A stretch of DNA of 64,000 nt, taken from contig NC_014166.1 in NCBI RefSeq assembly GCF_000092245.1, positions 62,001 to 126,000 on the forward strand. Direction: 5' to 3'. Position numbers and translations under genes: made by a program. This stretch comes from Arcobacter nitrofigilis DSM 7299. Its GTDB lineage: Bacteria > Campylobacterota > Campylobacteria > Campylobacterales > Arcobacteraceae. The notes under the pieces are model-generated. The model had not been told where the DNA came from. It did no database searches and saw only the letters and a program-made list of their open reading frames with translations. This document shows, one piece after another, positions 6,356-62,852 of this stretch; position 1 is the first letter of the stretch, and the number at the start of each line of letters is the position of its first letter.

Positions 6356-6371
6356 TGGAATAGATTTTGCA
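6356..6371 (+). promoter_or_regulatory. Sigma-54 (-24/-12) promoter of the FeMo-co protein operon
   Basis: TGGAATAGATTTTGCA, GG-N10-GC, lies 33 bases before the ATG at 6404. The 16-mer is identical, base for base, to the promoter of nifV at 11827-11842. It should drive the operon from 6404 to the flavodiiron gene ending at 9369. Confidence 0.85.
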
Positions 6372-6403: not shown

Positions 6404-6790
6404 ATGATTGCAATACCATTAAGTAAAGAAGACTCAACAGTAATTTCTGATTTATATGGAAATGCTCCATATTTTGCCTTACTAGATTTAAGTTCTGGAT
6501 ATTTTAATGTAAAAGAAAATATTGGATGTGGAAATGGGCTTGAAACAGCAAAATGTGTAGAAGAGTTAGGTGCAAAAAGTACTATTTTTTATCATATGGG
6601 TGAAGGTGTTTTTAATCATCTAAATGAAAATAAAGTAAAAGTTTATAGTGCAGCAAAAACTTATTTGACAATAGAAGATATATATAGAAATATTTTAAAC
6701 AAGTCGTGCAAAGTTGTTACAAAAGAGAATTGTGAGAGTTTATTGGACTCTGGAACTACATCTTGCTCATGTGAGTGTGATAAAAACTAA
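6404..6790 (+). CDS. FeMo-cofactor-binding protein of the NifX/NifB C-terminal family
   Basis: A 128-residue protein of the dinitrogenase iron-molybdenum cofactor family, whose members (NifX, NafY, the NifB C-terminus) bind and shuttle FeMo-co or its precursors in the cytoplasm. Family signs are the opening MIAIPLSKEDSTVISDLYG with a Phe/Tyr-rich strand after it, and the block ENIGCGNGLETAKCVEELGAK. The tail is unusually Cys-rich (SCSCECDKN), adding to Cys in NKSCKVV and KENCESL; extra metal ligands are possible. It is the first gene of an operon with the HicB-Sel1-NifU fusion, nifX and the flavodiiron protein. The regular nifX is at 7770, so this is a second, separate family member. Confidence 0.85.
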   Translation: MIAIPLSKEDSTVISDLYGNAPYFALLDLSSGYFNVKENIGCGNGLETAKCVEELGAKSTIFYHMGEGVFNHLNENKVKVYSAAKTYLTIEDIYRNILNKSCKVVTKENCESLLDSGTTSCSCECDKN

Positions 6791-6801
6791 TTGAGTTGAA
6801 T

Positions 6802-7773
6802 ATGGAAAAAGATTTAGAATATTATCTGTCTTTAGACTATCCCTTTGAAACATATAGTGGAGAAAATGAAGTTGGAGATGCTTTTTTAGTAGAGTTTTTT
6901 GATTTTGATATAAAAGCTTCAAGTGAAGATTTTGATGAGGCAGTTGAACTTGCACATACATATTTAGAAGAACACTTAAAAAGAGAATTAAAAGCAAAAA
7001 GAGAAATACCAAAGCCAAATGAAGGAAGAAGATTTATGGAACATAGAACTGCATTAGCTGCATATAAAAACAAAGACTTTGAAAAGGCCTATAGCATTTG
7101 GGAAGAAGAAGCAAAATTAAAAAATGATCAAGCTATGGCAAATTTAGGTTTGATGTACTTAAAAGGTGAAGGTGTAGAAAAGGATTATTCTATAGCTAAA
7201 GATTGGTTTGAGAAAGCTAGTTCTTATGATAATGATTCTGCAAATTTTAATTTGGCACTTATGTATCAAACAAAAATTGGTGTTGAAGAAGATATAGAAA
7301 AAGCAAAAGAGTATTTTAGAAAAGCAGTTAGAAAAAATCATACCCAAGCAGCCTTTAGATTGGCTCTTGTTTTACTTCAAGATAGACAAAATTTAGATGG
7401 GGTAAGAGAAGGTTTTGACTGTATGTTAAAAGCTGCAAAAAACGGTCATGCAATGGCAAGTATTCAATTAACAGGTATAGATAAAGATCTAGCAACCAAT
7501 GTGGAATTAAATGAGCATTTTAGAGCTCAAAGCATGGAAAAACAACTAGAAATCATCAATGATACTTTAGATAGATTTATTAGACCAATTTTATTAAAAG
7601 ATGGTGGGAATATTTTACTAATAGATTATGTAAATGAACCAGAAATAGAACTAAGACTTGCTTATCAAGGCGCTTGTGTTGGGTGTTCAATTGCAAGTAC
7701 GGGAACTTATGAGATGATAAAAGGTACTTTAGAAAAGGTAATTGACCCAAGAGTTAGGTTATATATATTATGA
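6802..7773 (+). CDS. HicB-like / Sel1-repeat / NifU C-terminal domain fusion protein
   Basis: A 323-residue cytoplasmic protein with three parts. Residues 5-74 resemble a HicB-type antitoxin fold (YYLSLDYPFETY, then DAFLVEFFDFDIKASSEDFDEAVE and a following helix). Residues 80-225 contain Sel1/TPR-like repeats (ANLGLMYLKGEGVEKDYSIA, ANFNLALMYQTKIGVEEDIEKA and a third copy near 180). Residues 249-323 are a NifU C-terminal (Nfu) domain with RPILLKDGGNILLIDYV and GACVGCSIAST, Cys292-x2-Cys295 being the expected Fe-S ligands. This suggests an Fe-S carrier with an added protein-protein interaction scaffold, serving nitrogenase maturation. The ATG at 6802 is preferred over an in-frame TTG at 6796. 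The stop codon overlaps the nifX start (ATGA). Confidence 0.85.
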   Translation: MEKDLEYYLSLDYPFETYSGENEVGDAFLVEFFDFDIKASSEDFDEAVELAHTYLEEHLKRELKAKREIPKPNEGRRFMEHRTALAAYKNKDFEKAYSIWEEEAKLKNDQAMANLGLMYLKGEGVEKDYSIAKDWFEKASSYDNDSANFNLALMYQTKIGVEEDIEKAKEYFRKAVRKNHTQAAFRLALVLLQDRQNLDGVREGFDCMLKAAKNGHAMASIQLTGIDKDLATNVELNEHFRAQSMEKQLEIINDTLDRFIRPILLKDGGNILLIDYVNEPEIELRLAYQGACVGCSIASTGTYEMIKGTLEKVIDPRVRLYIL

Positions 7774-9432: not shown

Positions 9433-9618
9433 TTATGATAGGTCACTAAGTGTTGATACCTTATAAACTACATCTTTGAGTTCATTTAGTTTTTTTATTA
9501 TATCTTCATCACAGTGTTTATCCATATCAAATCTTGTCTCCATAAAATAATATATATTATCTATATTTGAAAATACTTCTTGGAGAAGTTGCTCTTTTAT
9601 ACTATCTTGTATACTCAT
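9433..9618 (-). CDS. Small nif-linked hypothetical protein (61 residues)
   Basis: A short acidic, mostly helical protein (MSIQDSIKEQLLQEVFSNID...) with one cysteine (Cys36). Its ATG overlaps the end of the ArsC-like nitrogenase-associated gene by 4 bases, so it is translated from the same sigma-54-driven message. I do not recognise the family; small helical proteins of unknown role are common in nif clusters. It ends 9 bases before a terminator hairpin. Confidence 0.65.
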   Translation of the reverse strand: MSIQDSIKEQLLQEVFSNIDNIYYFMETRFDMDKHCDEDIIKKLNELKDVVYKVSTLSDLS

Positions 9619-9974
9619 CTTAACTCCCTTAGTTTAAAATCTAAAATTTTATTTAAATCAAATCCACAAAATTTATTTGTACCAATTGTTATAAGAGGTC
9701 TTTTTATTAAAATAGGATTTGAAATCATAAGATTTAGTAACTCCTCATCAGAAGTATTATCTAAATCTATCTCCTTGTTTTTTACAAGTGGGGCATTTGG
9801 ATTTATGCACTCTTTTATACTTTTATTCTCAAAAAAGTTAAGTAGTTGGTTTTTTGAAAAGTTTGTTTTCAATAAATCTGTACTAATAACATTGAAGCCA
9901 AAGTCTTTTAATCTCTTCTTTTGTTTGGTGTTATTTACACATCCAACTTTTTCATAAAAAATTACTGGAATCAT
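9615..9974 (-). CDS. Nitrogenase-associated ArsC/Spx-like protein
   Basis: A 119-residue thioredoxin-fold protein of the ArsC/Spx group, matching the nif-specific subfamily (TIGR01616, nitrogenase-associated protein) through YEKVGCVNNTKQKKRL at the N-terminus. A single Cys12 sits where arsenate reductases have their active cysteine. Further family marks are the SNPILIKRPLITIG block and the C-terminal FCGFD. The role is unknown; a redox or regulatory function near nitrogenase is assumed for the subfamily. It is transcribed from a sigma-54 promoter at 10001-10016, divergent from nifB, and is coupled to the 61-residue gene. Confidence 0.88.
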   Translation of the reverse strand: MIPVIFYEKVGCVNNTKQKKRLKDFGFNVISTDLLKTNFSKNQLLNFFENKSIKECINPNAPLVKNKEIDLDNTSDEELLNLMISNPILIKRPLITIGTNKFCGFDLNKILDFKLRELR

Positions 9975-11539: not shown

Positions 11540-11821
11540 ATGAAAAATAATCCTAAAATAATCCTTTTAAAAGGAAATGGACCCATTTCTATAAATAATG
11601 AGTTACTGGAGCTTTATCCAGTAACTACTTGTCATGGAGCTATTGGTTTCCCTTTAAAATCATTGCGAGCTGATAATGTTTATATTGTAAATTCCCTTGA
11701 TGAATTTTGGCAAATAGAAAAAACTATCAAAGAAAAACCTTGCTGTTTTGTATATGCTTATGAAAATCTTGAGAAAGAGGATTTATCAAAAATTCATGCA
11801 CTTGATATGATAAGTGTATAA
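11540..11821 (+). CDS. Small nif-linked hypothetical protein (93 residues)
   Basis: A 93-residue protein (MKNNPKIILLKGNGPISINN...) with Cys in VTTCHGAIG and a CC pair in EKPCCFVYAYE; I do not recognise the family. It follows nifB by 15 bases with no intervening promoter, so it is probably expressed with nifB. The ribosome binding site is weak. The next unit, nifV, has its own sigma-54 promoter starting 6 bases after this stop codon. Confidence 0.7.
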   Translation: MKNNPKIILLKGNGPISINNELLELYPVTTCHGAIGFPLKSLRADNVYIVNSLDEFWQIEKTIKEKPCCFVYAYENLEKEDLSKIHALDMISV

Positions 11822-11826
11822 AGTAA

Positions 11827-11842
11827 TGGAATAGATTTTGCA
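11827..11842 (+). promoter_or_regulatory. Sigma-54 (-24/-12) promoter of the nifV operon
   Basis: TGGAATAGATTTTGCA, identical over all 16 bases to the promoter at 6356-6371. The -12 GC lies 34 bases before the nifV ATG. It should drive the genes from nifV through nifQ. Confidence 0.85.
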
Positions 11843-11874: not shown

Positions 11875-12990
11875 ATGTTTCTTATAAATGACACAACATT
11901 ACGAGATGGCGAACAAGCTCCTTATGTAGCATTTAATACAAAAGAAAAATTAGATATTGCCCAAAAACTTTATGAAGCGGGCGCAGATGAACTTGAAGTT
12001 GGAATTCCTGCAATGGGAAAAAAAGAACAAGAAGACCTAAAAGAGATTTTAGCTTTAAATCTTCCTATTCCAATCATGAGTTGGAATAGAGCAACAATGA
12101 GCGATTTGGAAGCTTCTTTAGAGTGTGGGCTCAAATCAGTTGATTTATCAATTCCTGTTTCAGATATCTTAATTGATGTGAAATTTGGTGGAGATAAAGA
12201 AAAAGTCTTATCTCAACTTGAAAAGGTGATTCTACATGCAAAAAAAGAAGGCTTATTTGTTTGCATTGGAGGAGAAGATTCAAGTAGAGCTGATTTGAAC
12301 TTTTTAAAAGAGATTTTGGCACTAGGAAAAAGTCTTGGTGCAAATAGATTTAGATATTGTGATACAGTTGGAATATTAACTCCTACAAAAACTTATCAAA
12401 ATATTAGTGAGCTTACAAAGTTAGATTTACTTGATATTGAAATGCATACCCATAATGATTTTGGTATGGCAACAGCGAATGCTATTTCGGGTTATGAAGC
12501 AGGAGCAAAAAGTGCTAATACTACCGTTATTGGGTTAGGTGAACGCGCGGGAAATGCCTCTTTTGAACAAGTATTGATGACTTTGGCAAGACTTCTTGGA
12601 AAAGATACACAAATAAAATCTGATAAATTAAAAGCACTTATTCAAACAGTAGGATTAGCATCAAATAGAAGAATAGATACTAATTTACCTATTGTTGGAG
12701 AGTATATCTTCTCCCATGAATCTGGTATTCATGTAAATGGAATGATGAAATCAAAAAGTGCTTATGAGCCGTTTACTCCAATGGAAGTTGGATTAGAGAG
12801 ATATTTCCCTATAGGAAAACACTCAGGAACATCTACTTTACTTTTTCACTTACAAACTTTAGGAATCACTCCTACAAAAGAGAGCCTACAAAAGTTATTG
12901 CCATTGGTTAGAGAAATGGTTACAAATAGAAAAAAAGTGTTAGATATAAAAGAATTGGAAGAGTTATACTTATGTTCGTTGGATATTTAA
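11875..12990 (+). CDS. nifV: NifV, homocitrate synthase
   Basis: Condenses acetyl-CoA with 2-oxoglutarate to (R)-homocitrate, the organic ligand of FeMo-cofactor. The 371-residue protein shows the DRE-TIM metallolyase opening INDTTLRDGEQAPYVAF (Asp6, Arg10, Asp11, Gln14), DTVG near residue 163, metal-binding HTHNDFGMATANA, and the GERAGNASFEQV signature with HESGIHVNGM later. The length matches NifV rather than the longer LeuA isopropylmalate synthases. Lying under a nif-type promoter in a nif cluster, NifV is favoured over a lysine-pathway enzyme. The next gene starts 19 bases inside its 3' end. Confidence 0.95.
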   Translation: MFLINDTTLRDGEQAPYVAFNTKEKLDIAQKLYEAGADELEVGIPAMGKKEQEDLKEILALNLPIPIMSWNRATMSDLEASLECGLKSVDLSIPVSDILIDVKFGGDKEKVLSQLEKVILHAKKEGLFVCIGGEDSSRADLNFLKEILALGKSLGANRFRYCDTVGILTPTKTYQNISELTKLDLLDIEMHTHNDFGMATANAISGYEAGAKSANTTVIGLGERAGNASFEQVLMTLARLLGKDTQIKSDKLKALIQTVGLASNRRIDTNLPIVGEYIFSHESGIHVNGMMKSKSAYEPFTPMEVGLERYFPIGKHSGTSTLLFHLQTLGITPTKESLQKLLPLVREMVTNRKKVLDIKELEELYLCSLDI

Positions 12991-13778
12991 GAAATGATTT
13001 TGAGGAAGAACTTTCTAGTATATTAGAAAGTGATACTCTTTTTGACTTGGAATTGTTAAAACAAACATATGAGATATTCCCTCAATACTGTTTTGCTGCC
13101 TATGAAGATGGTAAAATTGTAGGGGTAGTTAGTGCTTATGCTTTTAGTAAACATGTATTTATAAATGTAATTAAAGCTTTGGATACACACAAAGATGTAC
13201 TTACACGACTTATTAAGTTATTAGTGCAAAATGTGTCAAGTATGAATATATATGTACTAATAGAAGATAAGTTAGCTTCATATTTTACTGCTTTTAATTT
13301 TCAAGAACATTCAAAGTTTTTAAGATATTTACATAGTGGTGAAGCTGTTGCTTTTAACTTTTCAAATTCAACTGCGAAACAAGTAAGTGGAGAAAACTAT
13401 GATGATATCTCTAGAAAAATAGATAGGGAAGTCTTTTTAGATGACAGAGAAGAGTACATAAAAAAAGATTGCGTATTTACAAACTCTTTGAAACTTTCAA
13501 CAACAAGTGGTTTTATGCACTCATATGTAGTAAATAAAAGATATATAAAAATCTCACCTTGGCTTATGCAAAATGAATCTTACTTAGATGCTGAAAAGCT
13601 TTTAAGAGGAGTTTTGTATTATCGAGGGTTAAAGAAAATATTTGCTTTTATCCCAAAAGATATAAAAGAGATAAGTGAACTCTATGAGAGTTATAAGTTT
13701 AAAAAAGATGGAAATTTTTCTTTGCTTTATTTAGGTGAAAAGCCTGAACTAAAGTTAGAGAATTTATATGCACTTTAA
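12972..13778 (+). CDS. GNAT-like acetyltransferase-fold protein in the nifV operon
   Basis: A 268-residue protein that looks like two GNAT-type halves. The first has YCFAAYEDGKIVGVVSAYAF, the usual beta-strand pair of acyl-CoA N-acyltransferases. The second (about residues 155-260) ends with LRGVLYYRGLKKIFAFIP and SYKFKKDGNFSLLYLG, resembling the last strands of the fold. The substrate is unknown. The start lies 19 bases inside nifV with GGAAGAG 8 bases upstream, so translation is coupled to homocitrate synthase. The link to nitrogen fixation comes from context only; no Gly-rich Q/RxxGxG/A acetyl-CoA loop is obvious, so it may not be a catalytic acetyltransferase. Confidence 0.6.
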   Translation: MFVGYLRNDFEEELSSILESDTLFDLELLKQTYEIFPQYCFAAYEDGKIVGVVSAYAFSKHVFINVIKALDTHKDVLTRLIKLLVQNVSSMNIYVLIEDKLASYFTAFNFQEHSKFLRYLHSGEAVAFNFSNSTAKQVSGENYDDISRKIDREVFLDDREEYIKKDCVFTNSLKLSTTSGFMHSYVVNKRYIKISPWLMQNESYLDAEKLLRGVLYYRGLKKIFAFIPKDIKEISELYESYKFKKDGNFSLLYLGEKPELKLENLYAL

Positions 13779-13801
13779 TAAACAGAAAAGGAGACTAGAA
13801 G

Positions 13802-14011
13802 ATGGCAGATTTAACAGAAGAGCAAAAAGAGAAGAAAAAAGAGTTAGCAAAATATAAAAGAAAAGTTATAGAAAAAGCTGGTGTCGTACATGATATAGTT
13901 GAAGATACAATTTGGACAGAATATGATAAGTTGCCAAAACTTAGTGAAGAGATAGGCTTGGCTATGAAAGATGTGGAGAGTTTTTTAGAAGAACATCCTT
14001 ATTTAAAGTGA
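13802..14011 (+). CDS. Small helical nif-operon protein, possibly DUF683/CCE_0567-like
   Basis: A 69-residue highly charged protein with AAAAGGAG before its ATG. An N-terminal Lys/Glu-rich helix leads into KAGVVHDIVEDTIWTEYDKLP and a second helix. The arrangement (long helix, conserved His-Asp, second helix) recalls the small Rop-like metalloproteins (DUF683, CCE_0567 type) found in many nif clusters, but the match is by eye and weak. It lies 23 bases after the GNAT-like gene and 6 before the Cys-rich 80-residue gene. Confidence 0.6.
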   Translation: MADLTEEQKEKKKELAKYKRKVIEKAGVVHDIVEDTIWTEYDKLPKLSEEIGLAMKDVESFLEEHPYLK

Positions 14012-14017
14012 TATAAC

Positions 14018-14260
14018 ATGGAAGATTTAAAAAATAAACTTATTTGTGAGTGTGGACAGAAATCGATTCTTGATGCAGTAAAAATATTTGAAAATACGGA
14101 TCTTCCATATAAAAAAGCTAAAAAGCTAGTAACAGGATGTAATAAAACCTGTTGTAGAAAACCTCTTATGGCATTGTTTAATATGGTCGATTTTGGTTTT
14201 GTTGATTATGAAGAGATTTCATTTTTAATAGATGCTATGAATGATAGATTAAAGGGATAA
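14018..14260 (+). CDS. Small Cys-rich protein, possible BFD-like [2Fe-2S] protein
   Basis: An 80-residue protein whose first half follows the layout of bacterioferritin-associated ferredoxin/NifU-central domains: CEC (Cys10, Cys12), a helix with ILDAVKIFENTD, then GCNKTCC (Cys41, Cys45, Cys46). The canonical spacing is C-x-C-(31 to 34)-C-x2-C. Here it is 28 residues and the last pair is C-x3-C or C-x4-C, so cluster binding is plausible but not assured. It may supply electrons or Fe-S clusters for cofactor synthesis. It is tightly packed between the 69-residue gene and the leucine-rich repeat gene. Confidence 0.6.
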   Translation: MEDLKNKLICECGQKSILDAVKIFENTDLPYKKAKKLVTGCNKTCCRKPLMALFNMVDFGFVDYEEISFLIDAMNDRLKG

Positions 14261-14261
14261 A

Positions 14262-15254
14262 ATGAGAAGTGAAATAGAAGACTTTATTAAATGGGTAAAT
14301 GTTAATGGTTTAAACTCTTATATCTCTACACATATTGATGATATAAATGGTATGACACACTTAGATTTATCAAAAAAGAAAATAAGAGAACTTCCTGAAT
14401 CCTTTGGTGTATTACAAAATCTTACAGTATTGAAATTGTCAAATAATAGATTAAAGAAACTACCTAATTGTATTGGTGAATTTAAATACTTAAAAAATTT
14501 ACAATGTGAAAATAATCTTTTAAGTGAGATACCAAGCAGTATTGGCAAGCTTTCAAAATTGTTGATTTTAAATCTAAATGGTAATAGATTAGAAGAATTG
14601 CCAAAAGAGTTATATGATTTAAAAAGCCTGACAAGGCTAACTTTAGCAGCAAATAAGATAAAAAGACTTGATGTTGAATTAGGAAAATTATCAAAACTTT
14701 TATATTTTTCTTTAGATACAAATGAATTAGACGAATTACCTGATAGTTTTTCTAAGATGAAGTCTTTGTATTATCTTGATGTTTCATTTAACAATTTAAC
14801 AAAGTTACCTAAATCTATTTCCCAAATAGATGAGTTACAAACATTATTGTTAGAGGGAAATCAAATAGATGATTTACCATCTTTAGAATCCCATGATATG
14901 CTCATAAAACTTGATTTAAGTGATAATTCTCTAAAATCTTTAGATTTTAATGTAAGTAAATTAGAAGATTTAAAAATACTTATTTTGGATAATAATTTTC
15001 TAGTAAAACTTCCCGATGAGGTATGTGATTTAACTAATCTAACTAACTTAAGTGTTAGTTCAAATTCTTTGATTGAACTTCCTAAAAACATAGGAAAACT
15101 GCAAAATCTTGAAGAGTTGGATATAGAAGATAATAGTGTAGAAAAGCTACCAGACTCTTTTTTTGAATTAAAAAAGTTAAAAAACTTATATTTAGCAGAT
15201 AATGAGGGATTAAAAAGACCAGAGGGAATGGATTTTGAATATTGTGATATATAA
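14262..15254 (+). CDS. Leucine-rich repeat protein in the nifV operon
   Basis: A 330-residue protein made almost wholly of about twelve 23-residue leucine-rich repeats of the form LxxLxxLxLxxNxLxxLPxxIGxL (for example LTVLKLSNNRLKKLPNCIG), after a short N-terminal cap. The repeats are of the bacterial/plant cytoplasmic LRR type. No signal peptide, kinase, GTPase or membrane anchor is present, so it is likely a cytoplasmic binding scaffold. It starts 1 base after the stop of the Cys-rich gene and lies before nifQ, so it is part of the sigma-54-driven nif operon. Its partner is unknown. Functional analogy with the LRV Fe-S repeat protein near Azotobacter nif genes is speculative. Confidence 0.88.
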   Translation: MRSEIEDFIKWVNVNGLNSYISTHIDDINGMTHLDLSKKKIRELPESFGVLQNLTVLKLSNNRLKKLPNCIGEFKYLKNLQCENNLLSEIPSSIGKLSKLLILNLNGNRLEELPKELYDLKSLTRLTLAANKIKRLDVELGKLSKLLYFSLDTNELDELPDSFSKMKSLYYLDVSFNNLTKLPKSISQIDELQTLLLEGNQIDDLPSLESHDMLIKLDLSDNSLKSLDFNVSKLEDLKILILDNNFLVKLPDEVCDLTNLTNLSVSSNSLIELPKNIGKLQNLEELDIEDNSVEKLPDSFFELKKLKNLYLADNEGLKRPEGMDFEYCDI

Positions 15255-15288: not shown

Positions 15289-15609
15289 ATGAGAGATTTA
15301 GAACTTATGGAAAAAGAGGTTTTAGACCTTTTAAGTAAACATGCCAATACTGAACAAATAAAAGCTACTTTAGCTCCACTTATAGCAAAAACTTCTATAG
15401 AGATGGGACATCTTTATTCTGATTTAGGATTACCAACTAGAGAAGAGATGGGAAAACTTATGAGTGCAAATTTTAGCTCACTAGCAAAACTAAAACCCTC
15501 AGATGTAAGATGGAAAAAGTACCTATATGACTGTATTGGTAAAACTGCACCTGCTTGTGCAAAGTGCAATGATATATCTAACTGTTTTAATTGTTCTTTA
15601 GCCTCATAA
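15289..15609 (+). CDS. nifQ: Short NifQ-like molybdenum/Fe-S donor protein
   Basis: NifQ carries a Mo-Fe-S cluster and donates molybdenum to NifEN/NifH for FeMo-co. The 106 residues match the C-terminal core of NifQ: DLGLPTREEMGKLMSANFSSL, then VRWKKYLYD and a cysteine cluster. The cluster is Cys82, Cys90, Cys93, Cys99, Cys102 (CAKCNDISNCFNC). The usual pattern C-x4-C-x2-C-x5-C is only partly kept: C90-x2-C93-x5-C99 is intact, the first Cys is 8 residues before Cys90, and an extra Cys102 follows. Classical NifQ is markedly longer (roughly 170-200 residues), so this is a minimal form. It has a good AAAGGAG ribosome binding site and is the last gene of the nifV operon. Confidence 0.85.
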   Translation: MRDLELMEKEVLDLLSKHANTEQIKATLAPLIAKTSIEMGHLYSDLGLPTREEMGKLMSANFSSLAKLKPSDVRWKKYLYDCIGKTAPACAKCNDISNCFNCSLAS

Positions 15610-61499: not shown

Positions 61500-62852
61500 A
61501 TGGCAGAAATAAAAAAAATCTTAATAGCTAATAGGGGAGAAATTGTTCAAAGAGCAGTTCGAACTATTAGGGAAATGGGTAAAAAATCAGTTGCAATTTA
61601 TAGTGCAGGGGATAAAGAAGCTTCATATTTAAAACATGCTGATGAAGCAGTTTGTATTGGTGGTGCTAAATCTAGTGAATCTTATTTAAATATTCCTGCA
61701 ATTATTACAGCAGCTGAAATGACTGGTTGTGATGCAATTTTCCCAGGGTATGGGTTTTTATCTGAAAATCAAGATTTTGTAGAAATTTGTAGATTACACA
61801 ATATTAAATTTATTGGTCCTTCTGTTGAAGTAATGGAAAAAATGGCTGATAAATCTAAAGCAAAAGAAGAGATGGTAAGAGCAGGAGTTCCTGTTGTTCC
61901 TGGATCTACTGGAGCTGTTCATAATGTGGATGAAGGTAGAAAAGTAGCTCGTGAAATAGGTTATCCAATCATGGCAAAAGCATCTGCTGGTGGTGGTGGT
62001 AGAGGTATGAGACTTATTGAATCAGAAGATAAGTTCGACCAACTATTCACAGCAGCTTCAAGTGAAGCCTTAGCAGCTTTTGGTGATGGTACTATGTACT
62101 TAGAAAGATTTATCAATAATCCAAGACATATTGAAGTTCAAGTTGTAGGTGATTCTCATGGAAATGCTATTCATATAGGTGAGAGAGATTGTTCACTACA
62201 AAGAAGACATCAAAAGGTTATTGAAGAATCTCCTGCAATTATATTAAATGATGAAACTAGAGCAAAACTTCATGCTGTGGCAGTAAAAGCTACTAAATAC
62301 CTAAATTACGAAGGTGCGGGTACTTTTGAATTTTTAGCAGATGATAAACAAAATATCTATTTTATGGAAATGAATACAAGACTTCAAGTTGAACATCCAG
62401 TTTCTGAAATGGTTTCAGGAATTGATATTGTTGAGCTTATGATTAAAGTTGCAGAAGGAGAAGAAGTTCCTCCTCAAGAAACAATTAAATTTAGAGGTCA
62501 TGCAATTGAGTGCAGAATTACAGCAGAAGATCCAAATACATTTTTACCAAGTCCTGGAAAAATCACCCAATGGATGGTTCCTGGTGGAAGAAATGTAAGA
62601 GTTGATTCTCATATTTATACAAATTATATTGTGCCCCCTTATTATGACTCTATGATTGGGAAACTAATTGTTTGGGGAAGAGATAGAGAAAAAGCTATCA
62701 AAATTATGAAAAGAGCTTTAAATGAGTTCGAAGTATATGGAATCAAGACAACTATTCCTTTTCATATTAAAATGATGGGAAATAAAGATTTCAATAATAA
62801 CACTTATGATACAAAATACCTAGAACACTACAAAGGTTTAGGTGATATTTAA
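61500..62852 (+). CDS. accC: Biotin carboxylase subunit of acetyl-CoA carboxylase
   Basis: Carboxylates the biotin on AccB using ATP and bicarbonate. The 450-residue protein has KKILIANRGEIVQRAVRTI at the N-terminus, the Gly-rich ATP loop KASAGGGGRGMRL, HIGERDCSLQRRHQKVIEESPA and the catalytic EMNTRLQVEHPVSEMV, then ECRITAEDP at the C-terminal domain. The length matches bacterial AccC. It ends directly in a terminator hairpin. Confidence 0.97.
   Translation: MAEIKKILIANRGEIVQRAVRTIREMGKKSVAIYSAGDKEASYLKHADEAVCIGGAKSSESYLNIPAIITAAEMTGCDAIFPGYGFLSENQDFVEICRLHNIKFIGPSVEVMEKMADKSKAKEEMVRAGVPVVPGSTGAVHNVDEGRKVAREIGYPIMAKASAGGGGRGMRLIESEDKFDQLFTAASSEALAAFGDGTMYLERFINNPRHIEVQVVGDSHGNAIHIGERDCSLQRRHQKVIEESPAIILNDETRAKLHAVAVKATKYLNYEGAGTFEFLADDKQNIYFMEMNTRLQVEHPVSEMVSGIDIVELMIKVAEGEEVPPQETIKFRGHAIECRITAEDPNTFLPSPGKITQWMVPGGRNVRVDSHIYTNYIVPPYYDSMIGKLIVWGRDREKAIKIMKRALNEFEVYGIKTTIPFHIKMMGNKDFNNNTYDTKYLEHYKGLGDI

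Follow-up and report, generated by a model that had tools for sequence, protein, structure and literature searches.

A candidate nitrogen-fixation accessory cassette built around a five-cysteine protein in Arcobacter nitrofigilis and other Campylobacterota

In the genome of Arcobacter nitrofigilis DSM 7299, four genes lie between the gene for homocitrate synthase (nifV) and the gene for NifQ, and they encode a GNAT-fold protein, a helical protein of 69 residues (DUF683), a cysteine-rich protein of 80 residues (the Cys protein, encoded by the Cys gene) and a leucine-rich-repeat (LRR) protein. We analyzed this nitrogen-fixation (nif) locus in a window of 64,000 nt (positions 62,001 to 126,000 of the forward strand of NC_014166.1), which belongs to a single contig of 3,192,235 bp; coordinates are those of the window unless another locus is named. 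The best explanation is that the locus is the form taken in A. nitrofigilis by a nif accessory cassette of the whole phylum, whose center is the Cys protein (14018–14260, + strand); this protein is singled out by its phyletic match to nif and by a predicted Bfd-like structure. All open reading frames (ORFs) of the block that had been described in an original prediction, made from the letters of the window alone, are present at the coordinates given there.

Results

The Cys gene tracks molybdenum nitrogenase across the phylum

The distribution of the Cys gene was determined in a phylum sample of 397 near-complete Campylobacterota genomes and a family sample of 104 Arcobacteraceae genomes. Across the phylum, the gene was found in 73 of the 78 genomes with a nifD-like gene and in 0 of the 319 without one, and all 73 genomes that carry it accordingly also carry a nifD-like gene. 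Within Arcobacteraceae 31 of the 104 genomes have it, the very set in which NifQ occurs; of the 32 genomes with nifD, 31 have the Cys gene. The Cys gene is thus present in nearly all Campylobacterota genomes with Mo-nitrogenase genes and absent from the sampled genomes without nif. These counts bear out the tie between the block and Mo-nitrogenase genomes that had been proposed, and for the Cys gene they exclude a sporadic occurrence unlinked to nif.

Five genomes (G110, G291, G335, G408 and G282) have a nifD-like gene and no Cys gene. The nif cluster of G110 is divergent and compact, with no nifV seen there, and looks independently acquired; on the minus strand of locus L158 (836–9463) it consists of nifH, two small ORFs, nifD-, nifK- and nifE-like genes and nifB, and the whole block is missing. 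Matches in G291 and G335 are weak, and G408 is fragmented, its contig stopping inside the GNAT gene. This leaves G282 as the one real exception, a near-complete genome in which nifV and the GNAT gene run straight into nifHDK.

Coverage of diazotrophs beyond Campylobacterota was limited to a peptide-pattern scan and plasmids. The scan of 84,980 species genomes gave 57 loci, all under Campylobacterota names or unassigned labels of metagenome-assembled genomes, and tblastn searches of plasmids with the Cys and DUF683 proteins gave no match.

The cassette is modular, with the Cys gene as its constant part

Gene order around the Cys gene differs between lineages. It is nifB-(93-aa ORF)-nifV-gnat-DUF683-cys-LRR-nifQ in Arcobacteraceae, nifB-nifV-gnat-DUF683-cys followed by either the LRR gene or nif genes of another unit in Sulfurovum and relatives, and nifB-nifV-cys-LRR in Sulfurospirillum. 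Searches of four Sulfurospirillum-type (f10/g41) genomes revealed no GNAT gene; in G156, the one genome of this type that was read out, the DUF683 gene lies some 0.7 Mb away; the LRR gene is missing in several Sulfurovum-type loci. Upstream of the Cys gene and within 3 kb of it, nifV was found in 43 of 48 loci and nifB in 31 of 41. The GNAT and DUF683 genes occur in 32 and 34 of the 48 named Cys loci, respectively, and the LRR gene directly follows the Cys gene in 40 of 54 loci. Downstream, nifQ was found within 3 kb in only 10 of 45 testable loci, so a position of the block between nifV and nifQ is typical of Arcobacteraceae alone.

GNAT, DUF683, LRR and nifQ have been independently lost or relocated, so the block is modular, with the Cys protein as the part that stays constant. 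The gene order of the window recurs in Arcobacteraceae genomes. An obligate complex of the four proteins, in the sense of the assembly or carrier complex suggested in the original prediction, is rejected on the grounds of the same independent losses and relocations.

At three loci (L070, L074 and L083) the Cys gene lies away from nifV, and these genomes still carry nifD (partial in one of them). Here the relocated gene stands beside genes for a Fer2 ferredoxin and an FAD flavoprotein of FrdA/NadB-like type (L083 7989–10310, L070 4356–6682 and L074 196–2519).

The Cys protein is predicted to adopt a Bfd-like fold

No Pfam, NCBIfam or PDB sequence family matched the Cys protein. A search of PDB sequences with the Cys profile gave chance-level matches only (RpoF, troponin C), and the Pfam names weakly matched by single members (MTH865, GIDA_C and others) were disregarded as inconsistent between members. 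The cysteine pattern CxC-x27-32-C-x3/4-CC is kept in 75 of 75 distinct homologues, and in 44 aligned members C10, C12, C41, C45 and C46 are invariant together with most of the motif KKAKKLVT.

The AlphaFold2 (AF2) model of the protein scored well (predicted local distance difference test, pLDDT, 92.5; predicted template modelling score, pTM, 0.83) and consists of a beta hairpin bearing CxC, two helices, a Cys loop and two further helices, the last of which spans residues 64–79. When Foldseek candidates were re-aligned to this model, Bfd alone stood out (Z 5.9, 2.1 Å over 55 of 56 Bfd residues), with the runner-up structure at Z 2.8. Residues 7–61 of the model align to Bfd 1–56, which puts C10 and C12 on C4 and C6 of Bfd. 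Profile comparison with hhalign placed CxC on CxC between the Cys family and the NifU middle domains of Campylobacterota (25.6% probability, E 7e-4), compared with 0.1–0.3% probability for three control families.

These comparisons suggest that the Cys protein, with its five invariant cysteines, likely folds like Bfd and the NifU middle domain and is too diverged to be filed in PF04324. The strand-helix-helix-loop-helix order shared by Bfd (PDB 4e6k/6e6r) and the NifU middle domain (PF04324, Fer2_BFD) is also predicted for the Cys protein, whereas identity is 7%, the C-terminal helix (residues 64–79) is extra and the family has so far turned up in a single phylum, in nif genomes alone. Ordinary PF04324 proteins, in contrast, were found in 58 of 61 Campylobacterota genomes.

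Partner proteins encoded by the block

The GNAT protein (268 aa; 12972–13778, + strand; PF18014, E 8e-7, above cut-off) is, as judged from its AF2 model (pLDDT 93.3), a tandem GNAT fold along its whole length and a PF18014 member; its best PDB match was 3ddd (Z 25.7, 251 residues, 2.5 Å). The fold is shared with the tandem GNATs 3ddd of Pyrococcus and 7q3a (MAB_4324), whereas most homologues of the window protein have lost the acetyl-CoA pyrophosphate-loop motif. This N-terminal motif (Q/RxxGxG/A) is kept in 6 of 53 homologues (for example QKQGIGKR) and lost in 47, among them the protein of the window, whose loop is degenerate, and acetyltransferase activity is therefore unlikely. The motif is intact in the GNAT protein of G282 (L155 13928–14752, − strand). 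The original description of a GNAT-like protein overlapping nifV is thus upheld as to fold and position, with the qualification that the acetyl-CoA loop has been lost.

The 69-residue protein (13802–14011, + strand), also confirmed as a gene, is by its profile match a member of the known nif-linked Rop-like family PF05082 (DUF683/CCE_0567) rather than something new. It scored 27.8 bits against a cut-off of 27, matches above cut-off were obtained in 18 of 23 nif genomes, and the nearest solved sequence matches were 3csx (CCE_0567) and 2js5; HDIVED and W38 are invariant in 21 homologues. Other nif-linked members are Msi338 and Msi276 in Mesorhizobium loti, CCE_0567, and PST1337 in Pseudomonas stutzeri, whose gene shows 64-fold induction when nitrogen is fixed (PMC2820453). 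M. loti has a DUF683-fdxB-nifQ cluster, where nifQ alone restored mutants of the first two genes, paralogues being present (PMC3538637). Elsewhere DUF683 adjoins DUF269 and FdxB, whereas here its neighbors are GNAT and the Cys protein.

The LRR protein (330 aa; 14262–15254, + strand; PF23598 and PF13855) has 54 orthologues, which share invariant residues at specific positions besides those of the repeat consensus. Conservation beyond the consensus suggests a specific binding face, and the protein is presumably a protein-binding or docking partner. Repeat proteins inside nif regions are also represented by PST1332 of P. stutzeri and by the LRV Fe-S protein of Azotobacter; compared with the latter, the repeat protein of the window is a canonical LRR protein in which no LRV-FeS domain was found.

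Layout of the transcription unit and neighboring genes

The genes in the window are ordered nifV-gnat-DUF683-cys-LRR-nifQ with spacings of −19, 23, 6, 1 and 34 nt, the GNAT ORF starting 19 nt before the end of nifV. The gaps of 1–23 nt originally reported hold inside the block, and the step to nifQ is longer at 34 nt. nifV (11875–12990, + strand; TIGR02660, E 4.2e-143, above cut-off) is the first gene of the unit, and the last is nifQ (106 aa; 15289–15609, + strand; PF04891, E 5.6e-22, 79.3 bits against a cut-off of 27), a short form that covers profile positions 58–158 of 159 and is without the first ~57. A sigma54-like promoter element, TGGAATAGATTTTGC (11827–11841, + strand), lies 33 nt upstream of nifV and is the presumed start of the transcription unit. 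An identical 15-mer was found at 6356–6370 (+ strand), 33 nt upstream of an ORF at 6404 that encodes a domain binding the iron-molybdenum cofactor (FeMo-co), and a similar site lies 34 nt upstream of nifB; none was found in the window upstream of gnat, DUF683, cys, LRR or nifQ.

Across the fetched loci, the strict sigma54 motif occurred upstream of nifV in 9 of 50 cases, of nifH in 4 of 8 and of rop in 4 of 40, and in 0 of 154 cases upstream of gnat, cys, lrr or nifQ, against a shuffled background of 0.9%. With two mismatches allowed, the pattern was not enriched over the window (32 versus 25 expected), and it is informative only through its position upstream of nif genes. Sigma70-like sites in the window were fewer than in shuffles. 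The layout shows nifV, the block and nifQ as one operon-like unit beginning at nifV, in agreement with the shared transcription unit of the original prediction.

Ratios of nonsynonymous to synonymous substitution rates (dN/dS) against three relatives were 0.04–0.17 for nifV and the four block genes (0.04–0.13 for the Cys gene) and 0.13–0.26 for nifQ. With low dN/dS and an order repeated in other Arcobacteraceae, the ORFs of the unit, nifV and nifQ included, are real genes on this comparative evidence, all under purifying selection.

Several other ORFs were observed in the surrounding nif region, for which the genome paper of the A. nitrofigilis type strain names no nif genes in its text (PMC3035288). 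The 93-aa ORF between nifB and nifV (11540–11821, + strand) matched no significant Pfam family and was detected in Arcobacteraceae loci only. The FeMo-co-binding-domain ORF adjoins an ORF of 325 aa (6796–7773, + strand) with Sel1/TPR-like repeats and a C-terminal NifU-like domain (PF01106), which is kept in many Campylobacterota nif loci. Divergent from nifB is an ArsC-like 'nitrogenase-associated protein' (9615–9974, − strand; TIGR01616, 100.6 bits with a cut-off of 109). Just left of the window, a redoxin-like ORF of 173 aa (L118 1183–1704, − strand; genome 61182–61703) has weak PF08534/PF00578 matches, and similar ORFs occur in several nif loci.

Discussion

The block is naturally read as having a role in cofactor maturation because it is tied to Mo-nitrogenase genomes and, by its layout, co-transcribed with nifV and nifQ. 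As a serious possibility, we tentatively propose that the Cys protein serves FeMo-cofactor maturation as an Fe-S carrier or an electron donor specific to the nif systems of this phylum, with the LRR protein docking it. The proposal draws on the strict Mo-nif tie, the nifB-nifV(-nifQ) position, the Bfd-like model and the nif ferredoxin family TIGR02936, which scored above cut-off in only 1 of the 23 Campylobacterota genomes examined and did not do so in the other 22. The Cys protein would hold an Fe-S cluster, in the simplest case a [2Fe-2S] cluster with C10, C12 and two of C41, C45 and C46 as ligands. It would be a small redox or cluster carrier dedicated to the NifB, NifQ or NifEN step, the role that the small nif ferredoxins FdxN and FdxB have in other phyla. 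In such a scheme the LRR protein would dock the Cys protein to its client, DUF683 may be an auxiliary small metalloprotein, and in this lineage GNAT may serve in binding rather than catalysis. The M. loti cluster offers an analogous position, with FdxB (fdxN_nitrog, TIGR02936) as the small Fe-S protein between DUF683 and NifQ, so that DUF683, a small Fe-S protein and NifQ would be combined in both cases, though the Fe-S protein differs; FdxB, a 4Fe-4S-type ferredoxin, has no sequence relation to the Cys protein.

Several observations weigh against an Fe-S carrier of this kind. Foldseek with the Cys model returned nothing at E <= 0.001 (the Bfd fold had E 5.6), and a Z of 5.9 is under the level that excludes common small helical arrangements. 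PF04324 was unmatched at the Cys locus in G000 and matched 0 of 44 family members even at E <= 10. The four ligands of Bfd follow the pattern C-x-C-x~31-34-C-x2-C; the Cys family has the CxC, and its second group, after 27–32 residues, is C-x3/4-CC in 75 of 75 homologues rather than the standard CxxC, and, on a literal reading of the alignment end, a residue other than Cys occupies the position of Bfd C38. G282 combines a complete nif set and GNAT with the absence of both the Cys and the DUF683 gene, so the Cys gene is dispensable at least in that genome. The nif region of A. nitrofigilis also has a Fer2 protein and a flavodoxin, and 8Fe-type ferredoxins adjoin nifB in several relatives; since other ferredoxins exist in nif regions, a replacement of FdxB or FdxN by the Cys protein is not forced.

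Five invariant cysteines instead of the four of Bfd, an adjacent CC pair and the variable C-x3/4-CC spacing would also suit a metallochaperone that feeds NifQ or NifEN from a Mo, Fe or Zn thiolate site (CxC plus C-x3-CC) and has no redox-active Fe-S cluster, as would the operon shared with nifQ in Arcobacteraceae and a phyletic range there equal to that of NifQ. We consider this unlikely, as the predicted fold places CxC as in a [2Fe-2S] protein and most other lineages link the Cys gene to nifB-nifV and not to nifQ. The proteins of the block might instead protect or regulate nitrogenase, as a Shethna-type Fe-S protein or as a redox sensor with an LRR adaptor, rather than build the cofactor. 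Many of these organisms are microaerophiles, and the pairing of a small Fe-S-like protein with a protein-binding LRR, seen at 40 of 54 loci, would suit docking or protection; most lineages, however, place the Cys gene by nifB-nifV and not by nifHDK, which points to cofactor synthesis and leaves protection or regulation somewhat less probable again than a metallochaperone. Bfd being the closest solved fold, a true Bfd-type ferredoxin that reduces bacterioferritin and so mobilizes Fe for nitrogenase clusters was also considered and seems improbable: PF04324 is unmatched, no bacterioferritin gene was recognised at the locus, and the Cys gene is strictly in nif genomes whereas ordinary PF04324 proteins are nearly general in the phylum.

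The losses and relocations of GNAT, DUF683 and LRR in some lineages, and the lost acetyl-CoA motif of GNAT, would be expected of passengers held by operon inheritance without a nif function. Such an explanation appears very improbable given the purifying selection on all four genes and, for the Cys gene in particular, its absence from all 319 nif-negative genomes, its low dN/dS and its retention in nif genomes when away from nifV. The suggestion that the LRR and Cys proteins together represent a split LRV Fe-S protein, offered as speculation in the original prediction, starts from the adjacency of the two genes and from their often being kept together. It was rejected and can be given hardly any credence, because the LRR ORF matched only LRR families, of the canonical LRR_8 kind, with no LRV family among them, no member of the Cys family matched LRV-FeS, and the Cys protein models as Bfd-like.

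Returning to the Fe-S carrier proposal, the Cys protein may also found an unnamed family, as a core phylum-specific maturation factor with a Bfd-like fold and a five-cysteine site that is delivered by the LRR protein and does the job of a nif ferredoxin or a Mo/Fe-S carrier; as a whole this is possible and rather doubtful. Literature searches found no mention of the Cys protein. The locus is in an apparently cultured type strain, in which single-gene deletions can test the Cys gene directly. The genes needed to build active Mo-nitrogenase matter for nitrogen-fixation engineering, and most knowledge of them comes from Proteobacteria, cyanobacteria and Paenibacillus. The Cys gene, which tracks nif phylum-wide and whose product matches no Pfam, NCBIfam or PDB sequence family, is a tangible candidate for a maturation factor still missing from that set.

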